A DNA stretch of 47,472 nt, taken from NCBI GenBank assembly GCA_003219415.1, contig QHOS01000021.1, positions 1 through 47,472 on the forward strand. The letters are read 5' to 3'. This DNA comes from Verrucomicrobiota bacterium (GTDB lineage: Bacteria; Verrucomicrobiota; Verrucomicrobiia; Chthoniobacterales; UBA10450). Every line of letters starts with the position of its first letter. Positions within the stretch are counted from its first letter, which is position 1. The position numbers and the translations under genes are program-made. Below are positions 38,535 through 47,472 of the stretch, piece after piece. Under the pieces are notes generated by a model that did not search any database, was not told the DNA's origin, and was given only the letters and a program-made list of their open reading frames with translations.

Positions 38535-39473
38535 ATGTCGAAGCGCGTTCGGCATTTTCGAATCGTCTTAGCTGTTCTCGTAATCATTTCGTCTTCGACC
38601 GCGGCCTCGGTGAAAGGCAGTCGGCCGACGCAGCTAAATGGATACAAGGCTGCTCGAGTCCACTACAGCCCTCTAAACAAAATGATAATGTCCGTCCGCA
38701 TCAACGGGCAGCGCGCAAATTTGCTTGTCGATACCGGCTCCAACCAGGTCATCTTGGATGCGGCCTCGGCGGAATCATTTGGCGTGCGACCGTCGCAGCG
38801 CGATCTGCGCTATCTCCAGTATACGCGAATTAATGGCCAGTTGCTTCCCGTTGGGTTCGCGCAAAGTCTCATAGCTGGCAGCATGAATTTTGGCAGCACG
38901 CTGGTGACGCTGCGTGATTCCAGCCATTCCTATATTGGAGACACTCGCGTTGATGGCGTTTTCGGTCTGGATCTTCTCGCCCGGTATAAGGCCGTGATCA
39001 ATTGCCGGACGAAACTTATTTTCTTTAAAGTCGATCAAACACGACAAATGGATCTCAGTTCCGTTGCTTCGGCGGAGAAATTCACCAAAATCCCCCTGCA
39101 GCGAGAGGCGAACGGCGCCTTAACTGTGCCGTGTTCGATTCACGGGCAACCCGCTCGTTTGCTCGTCGATACGGGCGCATTTATTACGATTTTCCACGAG
39201 GCTTTCCTTAAATCGGTCGGCGTTCCGGTGGAAGCAACACGAGTGTCTGCGCATTTTGCTCGTGGCACGTCTCGCAAAGTTAGTGCAGGACAAATCAACG
39301 ACCTTAAGATTGGCGGCTTCAAAACGCCGCCAGCGAAATTTGGCGTTACGGCATTGCCTAATTTCACGTTGCTGCAAAGCAGTGCCAGAATCAGCGGGAT
39401 CCTGGGGATGGATACACTGTACAACCGTCATGCTATCATCGACTTCGACAGCATGAATCTCTTTTTGAAATAG
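38535..39473 (+). CDS. Secreted retropepsin-like aspartic protease with two DTG motifs
   Basis: A 312-residue protein with an N-terminal hydrophobic signal (FRIVLAVLVIISSSTAAS). Two related halves each contain the clan AA active-site sequence: LLVDTGSNQVILD (about residue 70) and LLVDTGAFITIF (about 212). One chain thus carries both catalytic Asp residues, as in pepsins, while most bacterial retropepsin-like proteins have one per subunit. The substrate is unknown. I chose the ATG at 38535 over 38358, whose extra residues merely overlap the Nif3 gene. Confidence 0.8.
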   Translation: MSKRVRHFRIVLAVLVIISSSTAASVKGSRPTQLNGYKAARVHYSPLNKMIMSVRINGQRANLLVDTGSNQVILDAASAESFGVRPSQRDLRYLQYTRINGQLLPVGFAQSLIAGSMNFGSTLVTLRDSSHSYIGDTRVDGVFGLDLLARYKAVINCRTKLIFFKVDQTRQMDLSSVASAEKFTKIPLQREANGALTVPCSIHGQPARLLVDTGAFITIFHEAFLKSVGVPVEATRVSAHFARGTSRKVSAGQINDLKIGGFKTPPAKFGVTALPNFTLLQSSARISGILGMDTLYNRHAIIDFDSMNLFLK

Positions 39474-39650
39474 CCAGGTGGAAGGCATCCGCCGAGCCGG
39501 GAAATTGGGATCAAGCCAGCCTCGGCGTAGTGATGCCCCGTATTTGATTCGTGGCCGTGTTAGCTCGCTTAGCAATTTATCCCGTCACATGATTTCGCTT
39601 GACATGAGCATCGGCTGAATGGCAAAAGCGCAATCGCGAATCACATCCGC
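39474..39650. other. Gap with imperfect inverted repeat
   Basis: CAGGTGGAAGGCATCCGCCGAG faces CTCGGCGTAGTGATGCC about 40 bp further on, giving paired GCCGAG/CTCGGC and GGCATC/GATGCC segments near 39477-39535. It starts right after the protease stop and probably marks a transcript end. No gene seen in the rest. Confidence 0.4.
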
Positions 39651-40397
39651 ATGTCCGCCCCAGAGAACACGGAGAGAACACGAATTCTAGTCTTGGAAGA
39701 GCATCCGCTGCTTCGCCACGGGATCACCGATTACCTCGATTCTCAACCGGATATGATTGTGTGCGGCGAAGCCGACAACATTCGGGATGCACGTAACAAG
39801 CTCGCGGAATGCAAGCCTCAGTTACTGGTGACGGCACTCCGCCTGGGTACCGGTGACAGCTTGGAATTTGTAAGGGCGCTCAAAGCTGAACACCCGAGTC
39901 TGCTAATCCTCGTTCATTCCGCCTTTGAGGAAACTATTTTCGCCGAGCGCGCCATGCGTGCTGGCGCAAATGGTTACATAATGAAAAAAGCGCCCAAGGA
40001 AGAGCTGCTGGCCGCCATCCGGGATATCCTGAGCGGCGGAATTTATGTCAGCCGCGATGTGGCCATACGCGCATTCAAGAAATCGATCGAGACGCAGCCT
40101 GCGAATCAGTCATCGCGGTCGGAGACTGCTCTAGCGAACTTATCCGACCGCGAGTTACACATCTTCCATTTGCTTGGCTCGGGACTGGGCACAAGGCAAA
40201 TCGCGCATTCGCTGAATCTAAGTGTGAAAACGATTGAGAGCCATCGCGAGAATATCAAACACAAACTCGGCCTAAGTTCCGGGCGGGATCTGGTCGAGTG
40301 CGCCACGAAATACGTAGAGGAACATTTTCTGCCGCCGAAGAAGGACGCTTTGCCCGCGGTCGGCAAAAAGAAACTCGTGCGTTTCCCTGCCGCCTGA
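39651..40397 (+). CDS. LuxR/NarL-type regulator with degenerate receiver domain
   Basis: A 248-residue regulator: receiver-like domain (about residues 10-130) and LuxR-type helix-turn-helix (about 160-225, LSDRELHIFHLLGSGLGTRQIA then SVKTIESHRENIKHKLGL). The receiver is atypical: the acidic pair reads EEH instead of DDH, and the phosphoacceptor position lies in LLVTALRLGTG, where Asp is replaced by Ala or Thr. The Lys of the switch region (MKKAP) remains. It may work without phosphorylation. No histidine kinase is adjacent. The giant secreted protein gene follows after a 553-bp gap. Confidence 0.85.
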   Translation: MSAPENTERTRILVLEEHPLLRHGITDYLDSQPDMIVCGEADNIRDARNKLAECKPQLLVTALRLGTGDSLEFVRALKAEHPSLLILVHSAFEETIFAERAMRAGANGYIMKKAPKEELLAAIRDILSGGIYVSRDVAIRAFKKSIETQPANQSSRSETALANLSDRELHIFHLLGSGLGTRQIAHSLNLSVKTIESHRENIKHKLGLSSGRDLVECATKYVEEHFLPPKKDALPAVGKKKLVRFPAA

Positions 40398-40690
40398 CGA
40401 TCTGAATCACGACTGGAGTCCAATAGACGCGAATTCCGCAGGGCGTCGGGACCACGGCCAATCAATTAATTGTATGGCGTCTGTGTCAGACGCTAACCGA
40501 ACTAATTAGGCGGGCAGCCGACGGACGCCGAGCGAGCGGGAGCGACCGAGTCAAACGCGCTACGATATTCGTGTTTTACTACGTGGTAGGACTTTCCTAA
40601 CCGAAAGTAGCAAATTATTCACGTGTGTTAACATCGTCCCCTAGGGAGATTTTAACACGAAAATCAGGGAGGTCCCCCTACAGCGAATCT
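40398..40690. other. Regulatory-looking gap: several short dyads
   Basis: This part of the 553-bp gap before the giant gene contains GCGTCTG-TGT-CAGACGC (40478-40494), CTAC-GTG-GTAG (about 40577-40587), CTTTC-CTAACC-GAAAG just after it, and GTGTTAA/TTAACAC (40625-40631, 40652-40658) enclosing CCCTAGGG. No protein-coding frame looks real. These could be operators, attenuator stems or repeat remnants. Confidence 0.4.
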
Positions 40691-40807
40691 TCACTTTTCC
40701 GAGAACTTGGCTCCGCCATTGCCGTAATAAGAGGTGAGAATGGATATGGCAATGCCCCCCAGAGCGGTGCCCGGCAGCGCTTTTTCGCACCGGGCGCCAG
40801 AACTCAT
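40691..40807 (-). CDS. Candidate 38-residue peptide
   Basis: The ATG at 40807 (minus strand) is preceded by AGAAGGAGAAGG, a strong purine-rich ribosome binding sequence. The product begins MSSGARCEKALPG, continues with a hydrophobic glycine-rich stretch TALGGIAISILTSYYG and ends AKFSEK. It looks like a short membrane-active or exported peptide, but no family was recognised. It faces away from the giant gene and lies 294 bp downstream of the LuxR-type gene on the opposite strand. Expression is unproven. Confidence 0.4.
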   Translation of the reverse strand: MSSGARCEKALPGTALGGIAISILTSYYGNGGAKFSEK

Positions 40808-40950
40808 GTTGTGTCGCCTTCTCCTTCTTCTACGGGGATCAACTTGCAAGTCGCGCGCAGCTGTAACGAAGAAGCGGACCCGCAATCGCGGCCGCTTGGG
40901 TAATCGTACCTAACCAACCCCAGCTCCCCCTAGCAAAGCAGAATCTAAAA

Positions 40951-43900
40951 ATGAAAATATCCCCTAACGCAAGCAATGCAGGCATGCGATTTTTTGCCTT
41001 TTTAACCGCCAGCGCCACACTGGCAATAGCAACGTTGGTGAGCGCCTCAAGTTCTCATCAGGTGGAGCAACTCGATTCTCTTGTTATTCCGCGCACGAGC
41101 CATGTCGCGACGGCGCTATCCGATGGCCGCATTCTGATCACCGGTGGACATGACAGCGCCGGGAACCTCGTCGCAGTTTCCGAAATCTTTGATCCGGAAA
41201 CGCAAACCTCCACCGCTAGCGCGATGCTCTCCACCGCGCGCGTAGATCATACGGCAACGCGTCTGGCCGATGGCCGCGTGCTTGTCACTGGAGGTACAGG
41301 CGACAGTGGTCCATTGTCGTCTGCAGAGATTTTTGATCCTGCAAACGCTGACGCTGGCTTCCAGGTGCTCCCTTCCACGATGACCGCGGCGCGCGCGGGG
41401 CACACCGCTACGCTCCTGAGTAACGGCACAGTGCTTATCGCCGGCGGTGAAGGCACTGGTACTGCAGAAATATTTGATCCTACCACGGAATTATTTTCCC
41501 CCACGCTTTGGAACCTGAATGTGCCGCGCAGTGGGCACACCGCTACGTTGTTTACCGACGACAGTGTGTTGCTCGCTGGCGGCAACACAAATTCCGTGGA
41601 GCTCTTCACTCCTTCCGATCAAAAGTTCACGCTCGAAGCGGCAGCGATGTCGGGAGCGCGTACCGGCCATTGGGCGCTCGAGCTCAGCAACACGCGACTG
41701 CTCTTTTTCGAAGGAGACGCAGGAAACACGATTGACGAATACAATCCCGCGACTGGTACGATCACGCCCAAAGGCAGCCTGGATGTAGGTGCAACCAGCA
41801 CCACGCTCCTGGTGAACGGAAAAGTTCTCGTGCTCGGTTCTGACGTGGCTGGTCTTTACGATGCGAATACTGTTCCTCCCACTCCGCCGTTCGTCGCGTT
41901 CGATGAAACATCTGTACCGGGCAGCAGCATATTGCCGCGCAATGGTCAGAGCGCCACGGAACTTCCCGGCGACAAGAAGATCCTTATCTCCGGTGGGGCG
42001 GACACGAACAACCTGTTCATGGGCATGGCCCTCTTTAACCCGGCGCGGATCTGGACTGACAGGGATGATTATTACCCGGATGAGCCAGTTATACTGAGCG
42101 GGTCCGGCTGGATAGCAAACGAAGCCGTTTATCTTTACGCCGTTGACAATGAGACCCAGCGATGGGAATACGGGACCACTGTCACCGCCGACGCAAGCGG
42201 CGCGTTCGTCGTTGATCCGTACTTCATCGTAGAGCTGCGGCACCTCGGAGTGCAATTCCATGTGACCGCTGTCGGCGCACAATCCGCGATGCAGGCGGAT
42301 GTTTACTTTACCGATAACGTTACCGGGACGTTGTATGAGAATTCTGGGCGGACGATCAAACGCGACGCCTTCGTCTGGGGCGCGACAGTCTATCTTGGCG
42401 CAACCTTCAACGGACAAAGCGGAAACCGATGCTACAAGGTCGAGTGGGTGAACCCATCCAACACCGTTGTCCAGACCGCCCAATTTGAACCAAACACACT
42501 GGCGGATTCTTTCCTTGTTCCGTCTTCAGGTCCCAGCGGCATTTGGCAGGTGAAGCTTTATGAGGCTAACGCCAACGGTCCCTGCAACGGCGCGACCTTC
42601 CCGTCGACCCCAACCCAGACCCTGACTTTTGATGTCGCCCGTGCCGTGGTCATCGGCGCTCTGGCAGATAATTATGTCGATCTAAAGAATCCAAACACGG
42701 TCCAGAACGCCGCGGGAACCACGCTTATTGTGGCCAAGAAAAGCGGCACTGACGAGCAGCGGACGTTTCTCCGTTTCGACCTTTCCGGGATTTCGGGAAC
42801 CATCAATTCCGCCAAGCTCCGAATGGGCATTTCCGCGGAGGGTGGCAGCGCATTGAACCGAACCCACGATGTGTATCGCGTGACTGCCACTTGGACCGAC
42901 ACCAGCATCAACTGGAACAATCAACCAGCTGTCGCCGGGAGCGCCACCAACTCTCAGACAGTGACGGCCGCCCCCAGTTTAATGCGTTGGACGGTTACCA
43001 GCGATGTTGCAGGGTTCGTAGCCGGCACGTTCACCAATTTCGGTTGGCGCGTGAGTGATCCTGGACTTGCCCAAAGCAATAGCGACGCCACGTACGGCTC
43101 AACGCAGGCGAATACTTCAACTGATAAGACACAAGGGCCCGTTCTTCTCGTGGATTACACGAGCCCCACGCCCACGCCCACGCCGACTCCTACAGCCACA
43201 CCTACGCCTACGCCAACAGCTACGCCTACGGTTACACCTACGCCTACCCCGACACCTACGCCTACCATCGCACCAACGACCGTCACTGTGGCCGCCGCTT
43301 CCGGAACTTACGGCGGAACCACCAGCTTCTCCGCCACCCTGACATCGGGCGCGTCGGGCGTCAGCGGCAAGACCATCAGTTTCACGCGGAATGGCACACC
43401 TGTCGGAAGCGCGACTACCAATGGCAGCGGTGTGGCAACCCTAACGGGTGTTAGCCTTTGTGGGGTTAACGCCGGAACGTATGTCTCGGGCGTTGGGGCA
43501 AGCTTTGCAGGTGACGGCTCCTACGCCGCCGGCAGCGGAACTGCCTCGTTAACTGTCGGCAAGGCTAATGCGACGGTTGTGGTGTCCGCATACAACGTGT
43601 CGTATGATGGCCAGCCGCATACGGCGACCGTCGCGTCGATCACCGGTGTATGCGGTGAGACGGGAGCGACCGTCGGCACTGTTGACGTCAGCAACACGAT
43701 GCACACCAACGCCGGGACCTATAGCAGCGACACCTGGACCTTCACTGGCACGGACAACTATAACAACATCGCCGCTACGACGATCACCGATATCATCAGC
43801 AAGATCAATGCTACCTGGACGACCAATTCGGCGAGCAAGACCTATGGAGATGCGGATCCGAATCCGCTGAGCACTGGCAGCGGAACCGGCTTTGTAGCTA

Positions 43901-46900
43901 CAGACAATGTGACGGCGACTTACACTCGTGTGGCGGGCGAGACGGTGCTGGGGGGCCCGTATCACATCACCGCCACTCTTTCTCCGGCTGGCGTGCTCGC
44001 GAATTATAACATCACCAACACGGGTGCCAGCTTTACGGTCTACCCGAAGTCTGCCACTTGGACTACGAATCCAATTAGCAAGACTTACGGCGATGCGGAT
44101 CTTAATCCGCTGACTACGGGCAGTGGCAGCGGCTTCCTAGCTGCTGACAATGTGACGGCAACTTATAGCCGCGCTGCAGGCGAGACAGTGGCTGGCGGCC
44201 CCTATCACATTACCGCCACGCTGAGTTCGACGGCCGCGCTAAGCAACTACGAGATCACTAATGCAGGCGCCAACTTCACCATTAATGCAAAGAGTGCGAC
44301 CTGGACGACGAACCCCAACAGCAAGTCCTACGGGGATAATGATCCTAATCCGCTGACCACGGGTAATGGAAGTGGCTTCCTGGCTGGGGACAACGTGACG
44401 GCGACTTATAGCCGCGCGGCAGGGGAAACGGTGACGGGGGGCCCTTATCACATCACCGCCACGCTGAGCCCCTCGGGCGTCCTCTCGAACTACAACGTCA
44501 CTAACGCAGGCGCAGACTTCACGATCAATGCAAAGAATGCGACTTGGACGACGCAACCCAACAGCAAGACCTACGGCGATGATGATCCTGTTCCGCTAAC
44601 TAGCGGCTCTGGAACTGGCTTCGTGGCCGCGGACAACGTGACAGCTACTTACAGTCGCGACCCGGGTCAGACCGTAGCAGGTAGTCCTTATCATATAACT
44701 GCCACGCTTTCTCCAGCTGGCGTGCTGAACAACTACAATATTACCAACACAGGTGCGAACTTTACGATTGATAAGAAGACTGCATCGGTGACACCGAATG
44801 CAGCGAGCAAGACGTATGGCGATGTTGATCCGGCGCTGACTGGAACGCTGACCGGGTTCCTGGCTGCGGACGGTGTGACGGCGACTTACAGCCGCGCAGC
44901 GGGTGAGACGGTAGGGGGTAGTCCGTATACGATCAGCGCCACGCTGAGTCCGGGTGGTGTGCTGGGCAATTACCAGATCACTTACAACACGGCAGAGTTC
45001 ACGATCGACAAGAAAACCGCTTCAGTGACGCCGAATGCCAAGAGCAAGACGTATGGTGATACCGATCCGACCTTGACGGGAACGCTCTCCGGGTTCCTCG
45101 CGGCAGATGGAGTGACTGCCGCCTACAGCCGCGCGCCGGGCGAGACGGTTGCCGGCAGTCCGTACACGATCAGTGCCACGCTGAGTCCGGTGGGTGTGCT
45201 AGGCAATTACCAGATCACGTACAACACGGCCAGCTTCACTATCGATAAGAAGGCTGCATCGGTGACGCCGAATGCGGCGAGCAAGACGTATGGTGATACC
45301 GATCCGACTTTGACGGGAACGCTCTCCGGGTTCCTGGCGGCAGATGGAGTGACTGCGACCTACAGCCGCGCGCTAGGTGAGACGGTAGCGGGTAGTCCGT
45401 ATACGATCAGTGCCACGCTGAGTCCGGCTGGTGTGCTGGGCAATTACGAGATCGCTTACAACACGGCAGAGTTCACGATCGACAAGAAAACCGCTTCAGT
45501 GACACCGAATGCGAAGAGCAAGACGTATGGCGATGTTGATCCGGCGCTGACTGGAACGCTGGCCGGGTGCCTGGCTGCGGACGGTGTGACGGCGACTTAC
45601 AGCCGCGCAGCGGGTGAGACGGTTGCGGGAAATCCGTATACGATCAGTGCCACGCTGAGTCCGGCTGGTGTGCTGGGCAATTATCAGATCACTTACAACA
45701 CGGCAGAGTTCACCATCGACAAGAAAACCGCTTCAGTGACGCCGAATGCGAAGAGCAAGACCTACGGCGATGCAGATCCGACTTTGACGGGAACGCTCTC
45801 CGGGTTCCTGGCTGGAGATGGAGTGACTGCGACCTACAGCCGCGCAGCGGGTGAGACGGTTGCGGGCAGTCCGTACACGATCAGTGCCACGCTCAGTCCG
45901 CCGGGCGTGCTTGGCAATTACCAGATCACTTACAACACGGCAGAGTTCACCATCGACAGGAAGGCGCTGGACATCACGGCCAACAACCAGAGCAAGAACT
46001 ACGGCGATACGTTCAACTTCACGGGTAGCGAGTTCACCACGGGCGCTGGCCAGTTGGTCAACGGCGACAGCGTGACAAGCGTCACATTGACCAGCACGGG
46101 TTCAGCGGTATCAGCGACGGTCGGTGGCTCGCCCTACGCCATCGTGCCGAGCGCGGCGTTAGGCAGCGGGCTGGGCAACTACATTATCAGCTACCACGAC
46201 GGCAGCCTGACGGTGAATGCGATTGCGCTGGACATCACGGCCAATAATCAGAGCAAGAACTACGGCGACACGTTCAGCTTCACGGGGAGCGAGTTTACGG
46301 TTGGGGCTGGACAGTTAAAGAATAGTGACAGCGTGACCAGCGTGAGTTTGACCAGCACAGGTGCGCCAGGGACGGAAACGGTCGGCGGGTATCCGATTGT
46401 GCCGAGCGCGGCGGTAGGCAGTGGACTGGGCAACTACAACATGGTTTATCACGACGGGACTCTGACGGTGAATGCGATTGCGCTGGACATCACGGCCAAC
46501 AACCAGAGCAAGAACTACGGCGACACGTTTAGCCTTATGGGGAGCGAGTTTACGGTTGGGGTTGGGCAGTTAAAGAACAGTGACGGCGTGACCAGTGTAA
46601 CGTTAAGCAGCGCAGGTGCGGCGGCTACGGCGACAGTGGCGGGCTCACCCTATGTGATCACGTCCAGTGCGGCAGTGGGAAGTGGGCTGGGCAATTACAC
46701 GATCAATTATCACGATGGCAGTCTGACGGTGAATGCAATTGCGCTGGACATAATAGCCAACGCCCAAAGCAAGACCTACGGTGCCACGTTCACCTTCACG
46801 GGGAGCGAGTTTACGGTTGGGACTGGGCAGTTAAAGAACAGTGACAGCGTGACCAGTGTGACCTTGACCAGTGCTGGTGCGGCGGCGACAGCGACGGTGA

Positions 46901-47472
46901 GTGGGTCGCCGTATGACATCACGCCGAGCGCGGCGATAGGCACCGGCCTGGGCAATTACAGCATCACGTATCATGTTGGGCATTTCACCGTCAACGCGAA
47001 GGCGCTGGATATCACAGCCAACGATCAAAGCAAGACTTACGGTGCCACGTTCACCTTCACAGGAAGCGAGTTCACCACCGGTTCCGGGCAGTTAGTTAAT
47101 GGTGCCACCGTAATAACCGTAATGTTAGCCAGCGCGGGCGCAGCGCCGACAGCGACCGTGAGTGGGTCGCCGTATGACATCACGCCGAGCGCGGCGGTGG
47201 GCAGTGGGCTGAGTAATTACGCGATTACGTATCACGTGGGGCATTTCGCGGTGAACGCGAAGGCGCTGGATATCACGGCCAATGACCAAAGCAAGACCTA
47301 TGGCGCCACGTTCACCTTCACAGGCGCGGAGTTCACACCCGGCGCAGGCCAATTAATCAACGGCGACACCGTAACGAGTGTAACCTTGACCAGTGCGGGT
47401 GCAGCAGGGACAGCAACTGTAACTATCCCTGGCCCGACTTATGACATTACGCCGAGCGCGGCGGTAGGCGCG
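40951..47472 (+). CDS. Giant secreted Kelch/DNRLRE/MBG-repeat protein (3' end beyond window)
   Basis: The frame is open for 2174 codons from the ATG at 40951 to the last base. A signal peptide covers about residues 1-34 (FFAFLTASATLAIATLVSASS). Residues about 45-365 repeat Kelch/galactose-oxidase-like units (HTATRLADGRVLVTGG, HTATLLSNGTVLIAGG). Residues about 563-733 resemble a DNRLRE domain (FLRFDLSGISG, then ATWTDTSINWNNQP). A Thr-Pro linker spans about 739-774. After two Ig-like units come MBG-type repeats with the core SKTYGD: four of 81 residues, five of 79, then at least six of about 87. It is probably a long cell-surface or adhesive stalk. The Shine-Dalgarno is weak and the C-terminal anchor is not visible. 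Confidence 0.88.
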   Translation, partial: MKISPNASNAGMRFFAFLTASATLAIATLVSASSSHQVEQLDSLVIPRTSHVATALSDGRILITGGHDSAGNLVAVSEIFDPETQTSTASAMLSTARVDHTATRLADGRVLVTGGTGDSGPLSSAEIFDPANADAGFQVLPSTMTAARAGHTATLLSNGTVLIAGGEGTGTAEIFDPTTELFSPTLWNLNVPRSGHTATLFTDDSVLLAGGNTNSVELFTPSDQKFTLEAAAMSGARTGHWALELSNTRLLFFEGDAGNTIDEYNPATGTITPKGSLDVGATSTTLLVNGKVLVLGSDVAGLYDANTVPPTPPFVAFDETSVPGSSILPRNGQSATELPGDKKILISGGADTNNLFMGMALFNPARIWTDRDDYYPDEPVILSGSGWIANEAVYLYAVDNETQRWEYGTTVTADASGAFVVDPYFIVELRHLGVQFHVTAVGAQSAMQADVYFTDNVTGTLYENSGRTIKRDAFVWGATVYLGATFNGQSGNRCYKVEWVNPSNTVVQTAQFEPNTLADSFLVPSSGPSGIWQVKLYEANANGPCNGATFPSTPTQTLTFDVARAVVIGALADNYVDLKNPNTVQNAAGTTLIVAKKSGTDEQRTFLRFDLSGISGTINSAKLRMGISAEGGSALNRTHDVYRVTATWTDTSINWNNQPAVAGSATNSQTVTAAPSLMRWTVTSDVAGFVAGTFTNFGWRVSDPGLAQSNSDATYGSTQANTSTDKTQGPVLLVDYTSPTPTPTPTPTATPTPTPTATPTVTPTPTPTPTPTIAPTTVTVAAASGTYGGTTSFSATLTSGASGVSGKTISFTRNGTPVGSATTNGSGVATLTGVSLCGVNAGTYVSGVGASFAGDGSYAAGSGTASLTVGKANATVVVSAYNVSYDGQPHTATVASITGVCGETGATVGTVDVSNTMHTNAGTYSSDTWTFTGTDNYNNIAATTITDIISKINATWTTNSASKTYGDADPNPLSTGSGTGFVATDNVTATYTRVAGETVLGGPYHITATLSPAGVLANYNITNTGASFTVYPKSATWTTNPISKTYGDADLNPLTTGSGSGFLAADNVTATYSRAAGETVAGGPYHITATLSSTAALSNYEITNAGANFTINAKSATWTTNPNSKSYGDNDPNPLTTGNGSGFLAGDNVTATYSRAAGETVTGGPYHITATLSPSGVLSNYNVTNAGADFTINAKNATWTTQPNSKTYGDDDPVPLTSGSGTGFVAADNVTATYSRDPGQTVAGSPYHITATLSPAGVLNNYNITNTGANFTIDKKTASVTPNAASKTYGDVDPALTGTLTGFLAADGVTATYSRAAGETVGGSPYTISATLSPGGVLGNYQITYNTAEFTIDKKTASVTPNAKSKTYGDTDPTLTGTLSGFLAADGVTAAYSRAPGETVAGSPYTISATLSPVGVLGNYQITYNTASFTIDKKAASVTPNAASKTYGDTDPTLTGTLSGFLAADGVTATYSRALGETVAGSPYTISATLSPAGVLGNYEIAYNTAEFTIDKKTASVTPNAKSKTYGDVDPALTGTLAGCLAADGVTATYSRAAGETVAGNPYTISATLSPAGVLGNYQITYNTAEFTIDKKTASVTPNAKSKTYGDADPTLTGTLSGFLAGDGVTATYSRAAGETVAGSPYTISATLSPPGVLGNYQITYNTAEFTIDRKALDITANNQSKNYGDTFNFTGSEFTTGAGQLVNGDSVTSVTLTSTGSAVSATVGGSPYAIVPSAALGSGLGNYIISYHDGSLTVNAIALDITANNQSKNYGDTFSFTGSEFTVGAGQLKNSDSVTSVSLTSTGAPGTETVGGYPIVPSAAVGSGLGNYNMVYHDGTLTVNAIALDITANNQSKNYGDTFSLMGSEFTVGVGQLKNSDGVTSVTLSSAGAAATATVAGSPYVITSSAAVGSGLGNYTINYHDGSLTVNAIALDIIANAQSKTYGATFTFTGSEFTVGTGQLKNSDSVTSVTLTSAGAAATATVSGSPYDITPSAAIGTGLGNYSITYHVGHFTVNAKALDITANDQSKTYGATFTFTGSEFTTGSGQLVNGATVITVMLASAGAAPTATVSGSPYDITPSAAVGSGLSNYAITYHVGHFAVNAKALDITANDQSKTYGATFTFTGAEFTPGAGQLINGDTVTSVTLTSAGAAGTATVTIPGPTYDITPSAAVGA
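43165..43270 (+). repeat. Thr-Pro linker coding repeat in giant gene
   Basis: Near-perfect hexamer repetition of CCNACN codons (ACGCCCACGCCGACTCCTAC and onward) encodes alternating Thr and Pro with some Ala and Val. The secreted protein gene at 5364 has a similar block at about 7050-7158. Confidence 0.85.
43807..44778 (+). repeat. Four 243-bp tandem repeats (MBG type A) in giant gene
   Basis: Units start at 43807, 44050, 44293 and 44536, each 81 codons, with core ATWTTN...SKTYGD, DNVTATYSRAAGETV and GGPYHITATLS. They are diverged at DNA level, unlike the block that follows. Confidence 0.9.
44773..45957 (+). repeat. Five 237-bp tandem repeats (MBG type B) in giant gene
   Basis: Units start at 44773, 45010, 45247, 45484 and 45721 with an exact period of 79 codons. 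The core is KKTASVTPNAKSKTYGD, GVTATYSRAAGETVAG and SPYTISATLSP. DNA identity between units is high, suggesting recent duplication or gene conversion. Confidence 0.92.
45958..47472 (+). repeat. Six or more ~261-bp tandem repeats (MBG type C) in giant gene
   Basis: The word GCGCTGGA recurs at 45964, 46225, 46480, 46741, 47002 and 47263, giving periods of 261, 255, 261, 261 and 261 bp. The core is ALDITANNQSKNYGDTF, FTGSEFT and a glycine/serine-rich SAALGSGLGNY. The sixth unit is cut by the window end, so the array continues. Confidence 0.92.

Follow-up and report, generated by a model that had tools for sequence, protein, structure and literature searches.

The gene that begins at position 40951 of the window, the whole 47,472-nucleotide stretch of Verrucomicrobiota DNA analysed here, probably encodes a secreted, fibrillar-adhesin-like protein in which a propeller head is carried on a stalk of variable length, the variation lying in one of its three blocks of repeats (class B). 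In the encoded protein, a signal peptide is followed by the Kelch head, a CBM96/DNRLRE domain and a Thr-Pro linker; the stalk comprises 16 MBG_2 domains, arranged in three blocks, and three related domains, and the protein closes with a PxKF-like end. The features, all on the plus strand of the window, are as follows.

39651 to 40397, plus strand: LuxR-type response regulator upstream of the stalk gene, a synteny marker that also precedes the AV125 and AV16 orthologs
40951 to 47472, plus strand: open frame of the giant, putatively secreted protein, truncated by the contig end; about 2,563 amino acids once contig C3 is added
40951 to 41055, plus strand: N-terminal Sec-type signal peptide with the hydrophobic core FFAFLTASATLAIATLVSA
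41059 to 42050, plus strand: Kelch/galactose-oxidase-type beta-propeller head (Pfam Kelch_4 at 1.8e-21, Kelch_6 and Kelch_1; AlphaFold model)
42050 to 42640, plus strand: beta-rich domain following the propeller (weak MG2 match; low model confidence)
42658 to 43113, plus strand: DNRLRE/CBM96 domain (CBM96 at 6.1e-24; NF033679 at 2.1e-22)
43168 to 43278, plus strand: Thr-Pro-rich linker, an imperfect 18-bp (6-bp) tandem repeat, in frame
43282 to 43557, plus strand: Big_3_5-like Ig domain, scoring under the Pfam cut-off
43558 to 43812, plus strand: MBG-like domain of the YDGxPHTA type; two related copies end the stalk on contig C3
43834 to 44805, plus strand: class A, four MBG_2 units of 243 bp (81 amino acids)
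44806 to 45990, plus strand: class B, five MBG_2 units of 237 bp (79 amino acids)
45991 to 47472, plus strand: class C, MBG_2 units of 261 bp (one of 255), five and part of another in the window and seven including contig C3
47261 to 47472, plus strand: overlap with the end of contig C3 (208/212 bases match, 98%)

A single frame is open from 40951 to the window end, which gives 2,174 amino acids in the window. The window is the entire contig C44, one of 253 contigs in the metagenome-assembled genome (MAG). The initial annotation, made from the window sequence, described the repeats as still running at the window end; the array does continue, on contig C3 of the same genome, and the stop at 47472 is that of the contig. 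The 3' end of the gene lies on the minus strand of this contig (C3:10517-9136), in the order remainder of unit 15, unit 16, two YDGxPHTA-type domains, the PxKF-like C-terminal domain, the stop codon and the MurJ gene. Despite four mismatches in the 212 bases of overlap, the join is supported because the close relative AV125 (G029) carries the matching sequence uninterrupted on one contig, between the same response regulator and MurJ. We infer the join from these sequences, and an extra near-identical unit may lie between the two contigs.

Both the Kelch-like and the DNRLRE-like parts named in the initial annotation were borne out by Pfam and NCBIfam profile matches. The core of the signal peptide is the sole strongly hydrophobic stretch in the protein. 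The AlphaFold model of the head has a mean pLDDT of 65 overall, with 77-93 across most of the first 200 residues, and matches solved Kelch propellers at an E value of about 1e-15 with a TMt of 0.7. In the beta-rich domain that follows, the alignment of orthologs showed a conserved first half and a divergent second half. The CBM96 family was established with an alginate-binding module of a multidomain alginate lyase, a module akin to DNRLRE domains (PMC9971899). By profile comparison, the match to this family reached 85 bits, where the cut-off is 26, and the domain also weakly matched the solved alginate-lyase chain 7vbo_A. The AV125 copy is without 160 bp of this domain (window 42759-42918, against L053 near 4518), and the resulting frameshift divides the AV125 gene into two open frames; the gap could be either real damage or an assembly fault.

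For the stalk, Tandem Repeats Finder returned tandem arrays with periods of 243, 237 and 261. The anchor motif SK[TNS]YG (n=15) recurs at a spacing of 81 residues four times, 79 five times, then 87, 85, 87, 87 and 87. Fifteen Pfam matches to MBG_2 (PF18676) were found in the window protein (E 4e-144, 469.8 bits against a gathering score of 25), and contig C3 adds two, one of which is unit 15, already counted in the window. The arithmetic first given for the array (four units of 243, five of 237 and six or more of about 261) was right, except that one unit of the 261 type has 255 bp. The same reading had called one block nearly identical. The 237-bp block is indeed the most uniform, with a mean pairwise DNA identity of 84.5% compared with 71.5% for the 243-bp and 74.5% for the 261-bp units, but in the identity matrix its pairs reach only 80.6-95.4% (67.9-79.8% for the 243-bp pairs). 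At the protein level class B units share 81-94% identity (mean 86.6%) and those of classes A and C mostly less than 80%. The last 237-bp unit bears a linker of the 261 type and the fourth 243-bp unit one of the 237 type; as the linkers switch before the unit changes, the block borders fall inside units. All unit lengths are divisible by three, which makes on/off phase variation, raised as a possibility at the outset, unlikely.

The proposal of a length-variable stalk was upheld by the AV125 ortholog, which lies between the same neighbours. Class B has two units of 237 bp in AV125 and five in the window, whereas the flanking blocks are unchanged: four class A units in each (97.5-99.6% identity, one to one) and seven class C units in each (96-99%, one to one, contig C3 included). 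The span from the first class A to the first class C unit is shorter in AV125 by exactly 711 bp, which is 3 x 237. This comparison of unit numbers concerns one close pair of MAGs from different species, and it is a clean one, in that one block changes copy number while both of its flanks match one to one. Hybrid units were detected in both genomes, namely g5 (u5 joined to u6) and g6 (u6 joined to u9) in AV125 and u7 (u6 joined to u8) in the window (permutation p of 0.0002 each). Such units are the trace that unequal recombination or gene conversion within the array would leave. Judging from these sequences, the length of the stalk appears to vary through in-frame recombination that is confined to class B, and unequal intragenic recombination could gain or lose class B units and so change the reach of the protein.

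Divergence between the window and AV125 is patchy over the aligned segments (38994-45042 and 45964-47472, against L053), with identity falling to 73% near 43219 and 83% near 41701; the class A units in the same alignment are 98-100% identical. Lineages may have recombined here, or constraint may be uneven.

The uniformity of the 237-bp block had been taken to imply a recent expansion. For most of the block this does not agree with the synonymous divergence, since the median dS among the class B units of the window is 0.54 (range 0.10-0.88), far above the 0.02-0.04 that separates the two species in the adjoining units. The dS values between the window and AV125 are low in class C (0.02-0.04), class A (0.03) and the C-terminus (0.05), and higher in the head (0.17) and in matching class B units (0.16-0.21). 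Units 5 and 8 (dS 0.10) are the only young-looking class B pair, and for them alone a recent origin stands; recent birth of the whole block was rejected. Most class B copies would predate the species split, even when measured against the 0.16-0.21 of the head and the matching units, as a rough dating because exchange among units resets dS. A loss of class B units in AV125 is no less likely than a gain in the window. The uniformity of the block is probably the result of exchange between units and not of recent birth, which is a caution that the most uniform repeat block need not be the youngest.

Relatives at a greater distance retain the head, with 62-93% identity to the window protein among those aligned, but differ in the stalk. 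The AV79 ortholog carries six MBG_2 domains, including one class-A-like and one class-B-like unit; that of AV16 combines six YDG and six MBG_2 domains with an Ig domain and is without CBM96; and the G038 stalk is mainly MBG_3. The class order A-B-C is seen again in AV79, and B-C in G003, with other unit counts. The replacement of whole stalks in relatives, together with the hybrid units in both the window genome and AV125, is what would be expected if the repeats simply recombine and lengths drift, no stalk length being selected. Such neutral turnover is possible, if short of probable, and it is compatible with the adhesin reading. Against it, the frame and the domain boundaries are preserved and units differ from one another at a low dN/dS (median 0.13-0.18), which indicates that the domains themselves are constrained and says nothing of selection on length.

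A length-variable stalk of this kind is already known from CdrA and from the Periscope Proteins; what is new here is a member from soil Verrucomicrobia. CdrA of Pseudomonas aeruginosa is an MBG_2 biofilm adhesin of 2,154 amino acids, with 14 repeats of 81 amino acids in the reference (PMC7484184, PMC8201768); across isolates, the length of the repeat region ranges from 3.54 to 5.19 kb (PMC7484184). Secretion and retention of CdrA both depend on its two-partner-secretion partner CdrB, and LapG frees it at a TAAG site (PMC7484184, PMC7616799). The protein described here resembles CdrA in its MBG_2 stalk and total size, and its class A units likewise have 81 amino acids. Unlike CdrA, it has a Kelch and CBM96 head and three repeat classes. 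No Pfam match to a two-partner-secretion (haemagglutination activity) domain was found in the protein and TAAG is absent from both of its parts, and membership of the CdrA type was rejected on these two grounds. No match to ShlB was found in the genome, the control genomes being equally silent, nor among the four neighbours scanned.

Periscope Proteins (SasG, Rib, Sgo_0707 and others) have an N-terminal functional part atop a stalk of tandem domains of variable copy number, and the study that described them also defined MBG_2 and YDG and counted CdrA among the MBG_2 proteins whose repeat number varies (PMC8201768). As an N-terminal part, a Kelch propeller and a CBM96 domain are predicted here from the sequence and the model. 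Stalk domains in that study have more than 50 residues and at least 80% identity (PMC8201768), and class B alone, with its units of 79 amino acids, reaches 80% identity throughout. In contrast to the Periscope Proteins, the variation observed here is between species (five and two class B units), not strains, and there is no known anchor. The long protein with an adhesion-like region and repeated stalk domains is also like the fibrillar adhesins; the two survey papers searched (PMC9210967, PMC8286594) mention neither Kelch nor DNRLRE. A sequence search found no solved MBG_2 structures. For the rod shape we rely on known MBG_2 proteins, because our model of three stalk units (12-sequence alignment) failed, with a mean pLDDT of 35.

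Extension of the sequence to the C-terminus reached the PxKF-like end, and no anchor was identified. The C-terminal domain resembles NF038114 (PxKF) at 30.8 bits, under the NCBIfam cut-off of 35. No anchor, LPXTG, or second or C-terminal hydrophobic segment was found in either part of the protein (window and C3). A released matrix or scavenging protein would fit a C-terminus of this kind, with the head and CBM96, a family defined from an alginate lyase, binding soil polysaccharide, the repeats serving as a spacer and no anchoring at all. We regard this as unlikely, as about half of a training set of known fibrillar adhesins also has no recognised anchor (PMC9210967), and the PxKF-like end (C3:9139-9507, in L018; L089 4159-4527) has a protein identity of 100% in AV125 and of 94% in G028 despite the other stalk of the latter, which suggests a constrained C-terminal role. 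The G028 gene adjoins an MFS transporter in place of MurJ.

If the protein is a surface adhesin, as we favour, its head and CBM96 domain could bind polysaccharide (matrix, plant or fungal), as their domain names suggest. The stalk would hold them tens of nanometres off the C-terminal end, and the C-terminal domain might retain the protein at the cell surface. A wider version, in which one conserved Kelch head sits on interchangeable stalks throughout a soil genus, the middle block is a length adjuster between fixed blocks and the PxKF-like end is a new outer-membrane attachment, is decidedly doubtful.

It is very unlikely that the copy numbers are collapses or chimeras of short-read assembly: both genomes are fragmented MAGs, the window ends within the array, the C3 overlap has its mismatches and the AV125 gene its gap and frameshift, but the longest exact repeat is 54 bp over the whole window array and 40 bp in AV125, the flanking units match one to one, and the class orders recur in AV79 and G003 with other counts. 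The soil project that fits the AV-series MAG records, and from which the window is inferred to come as well, worked from paired reads of 250 bp, assembled with k values of up to 200 (PMC6784897). Simple collapse in the window is unlikely because the exact repeats are well below both the read length and the maximum k; in AV125, units that were even more alike may have been collapsed.

Length-variable MBG_2 stalks have been known mainly from cultured and clinical bacteria, and the adhesin-like protein extends them to uncultured soil Verrucomicrobia. It could serve to ask whether a variable reach is of consequence in soil, where evasion of host immunity is no obvious driver.

Two genes upstream of the stalk protein, at 38538-39473 of the window, there is a gene for a retropepsin-like aspartyl protease, whose second half has diverged more in AV125 (84% identity near 39144). 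In five genomes of the same family (G035, G039, G043, G051 and G058), 33-46 matches per genome to the Kelch head were found, indicating a strong expansion of this type of propeller in some relatives.
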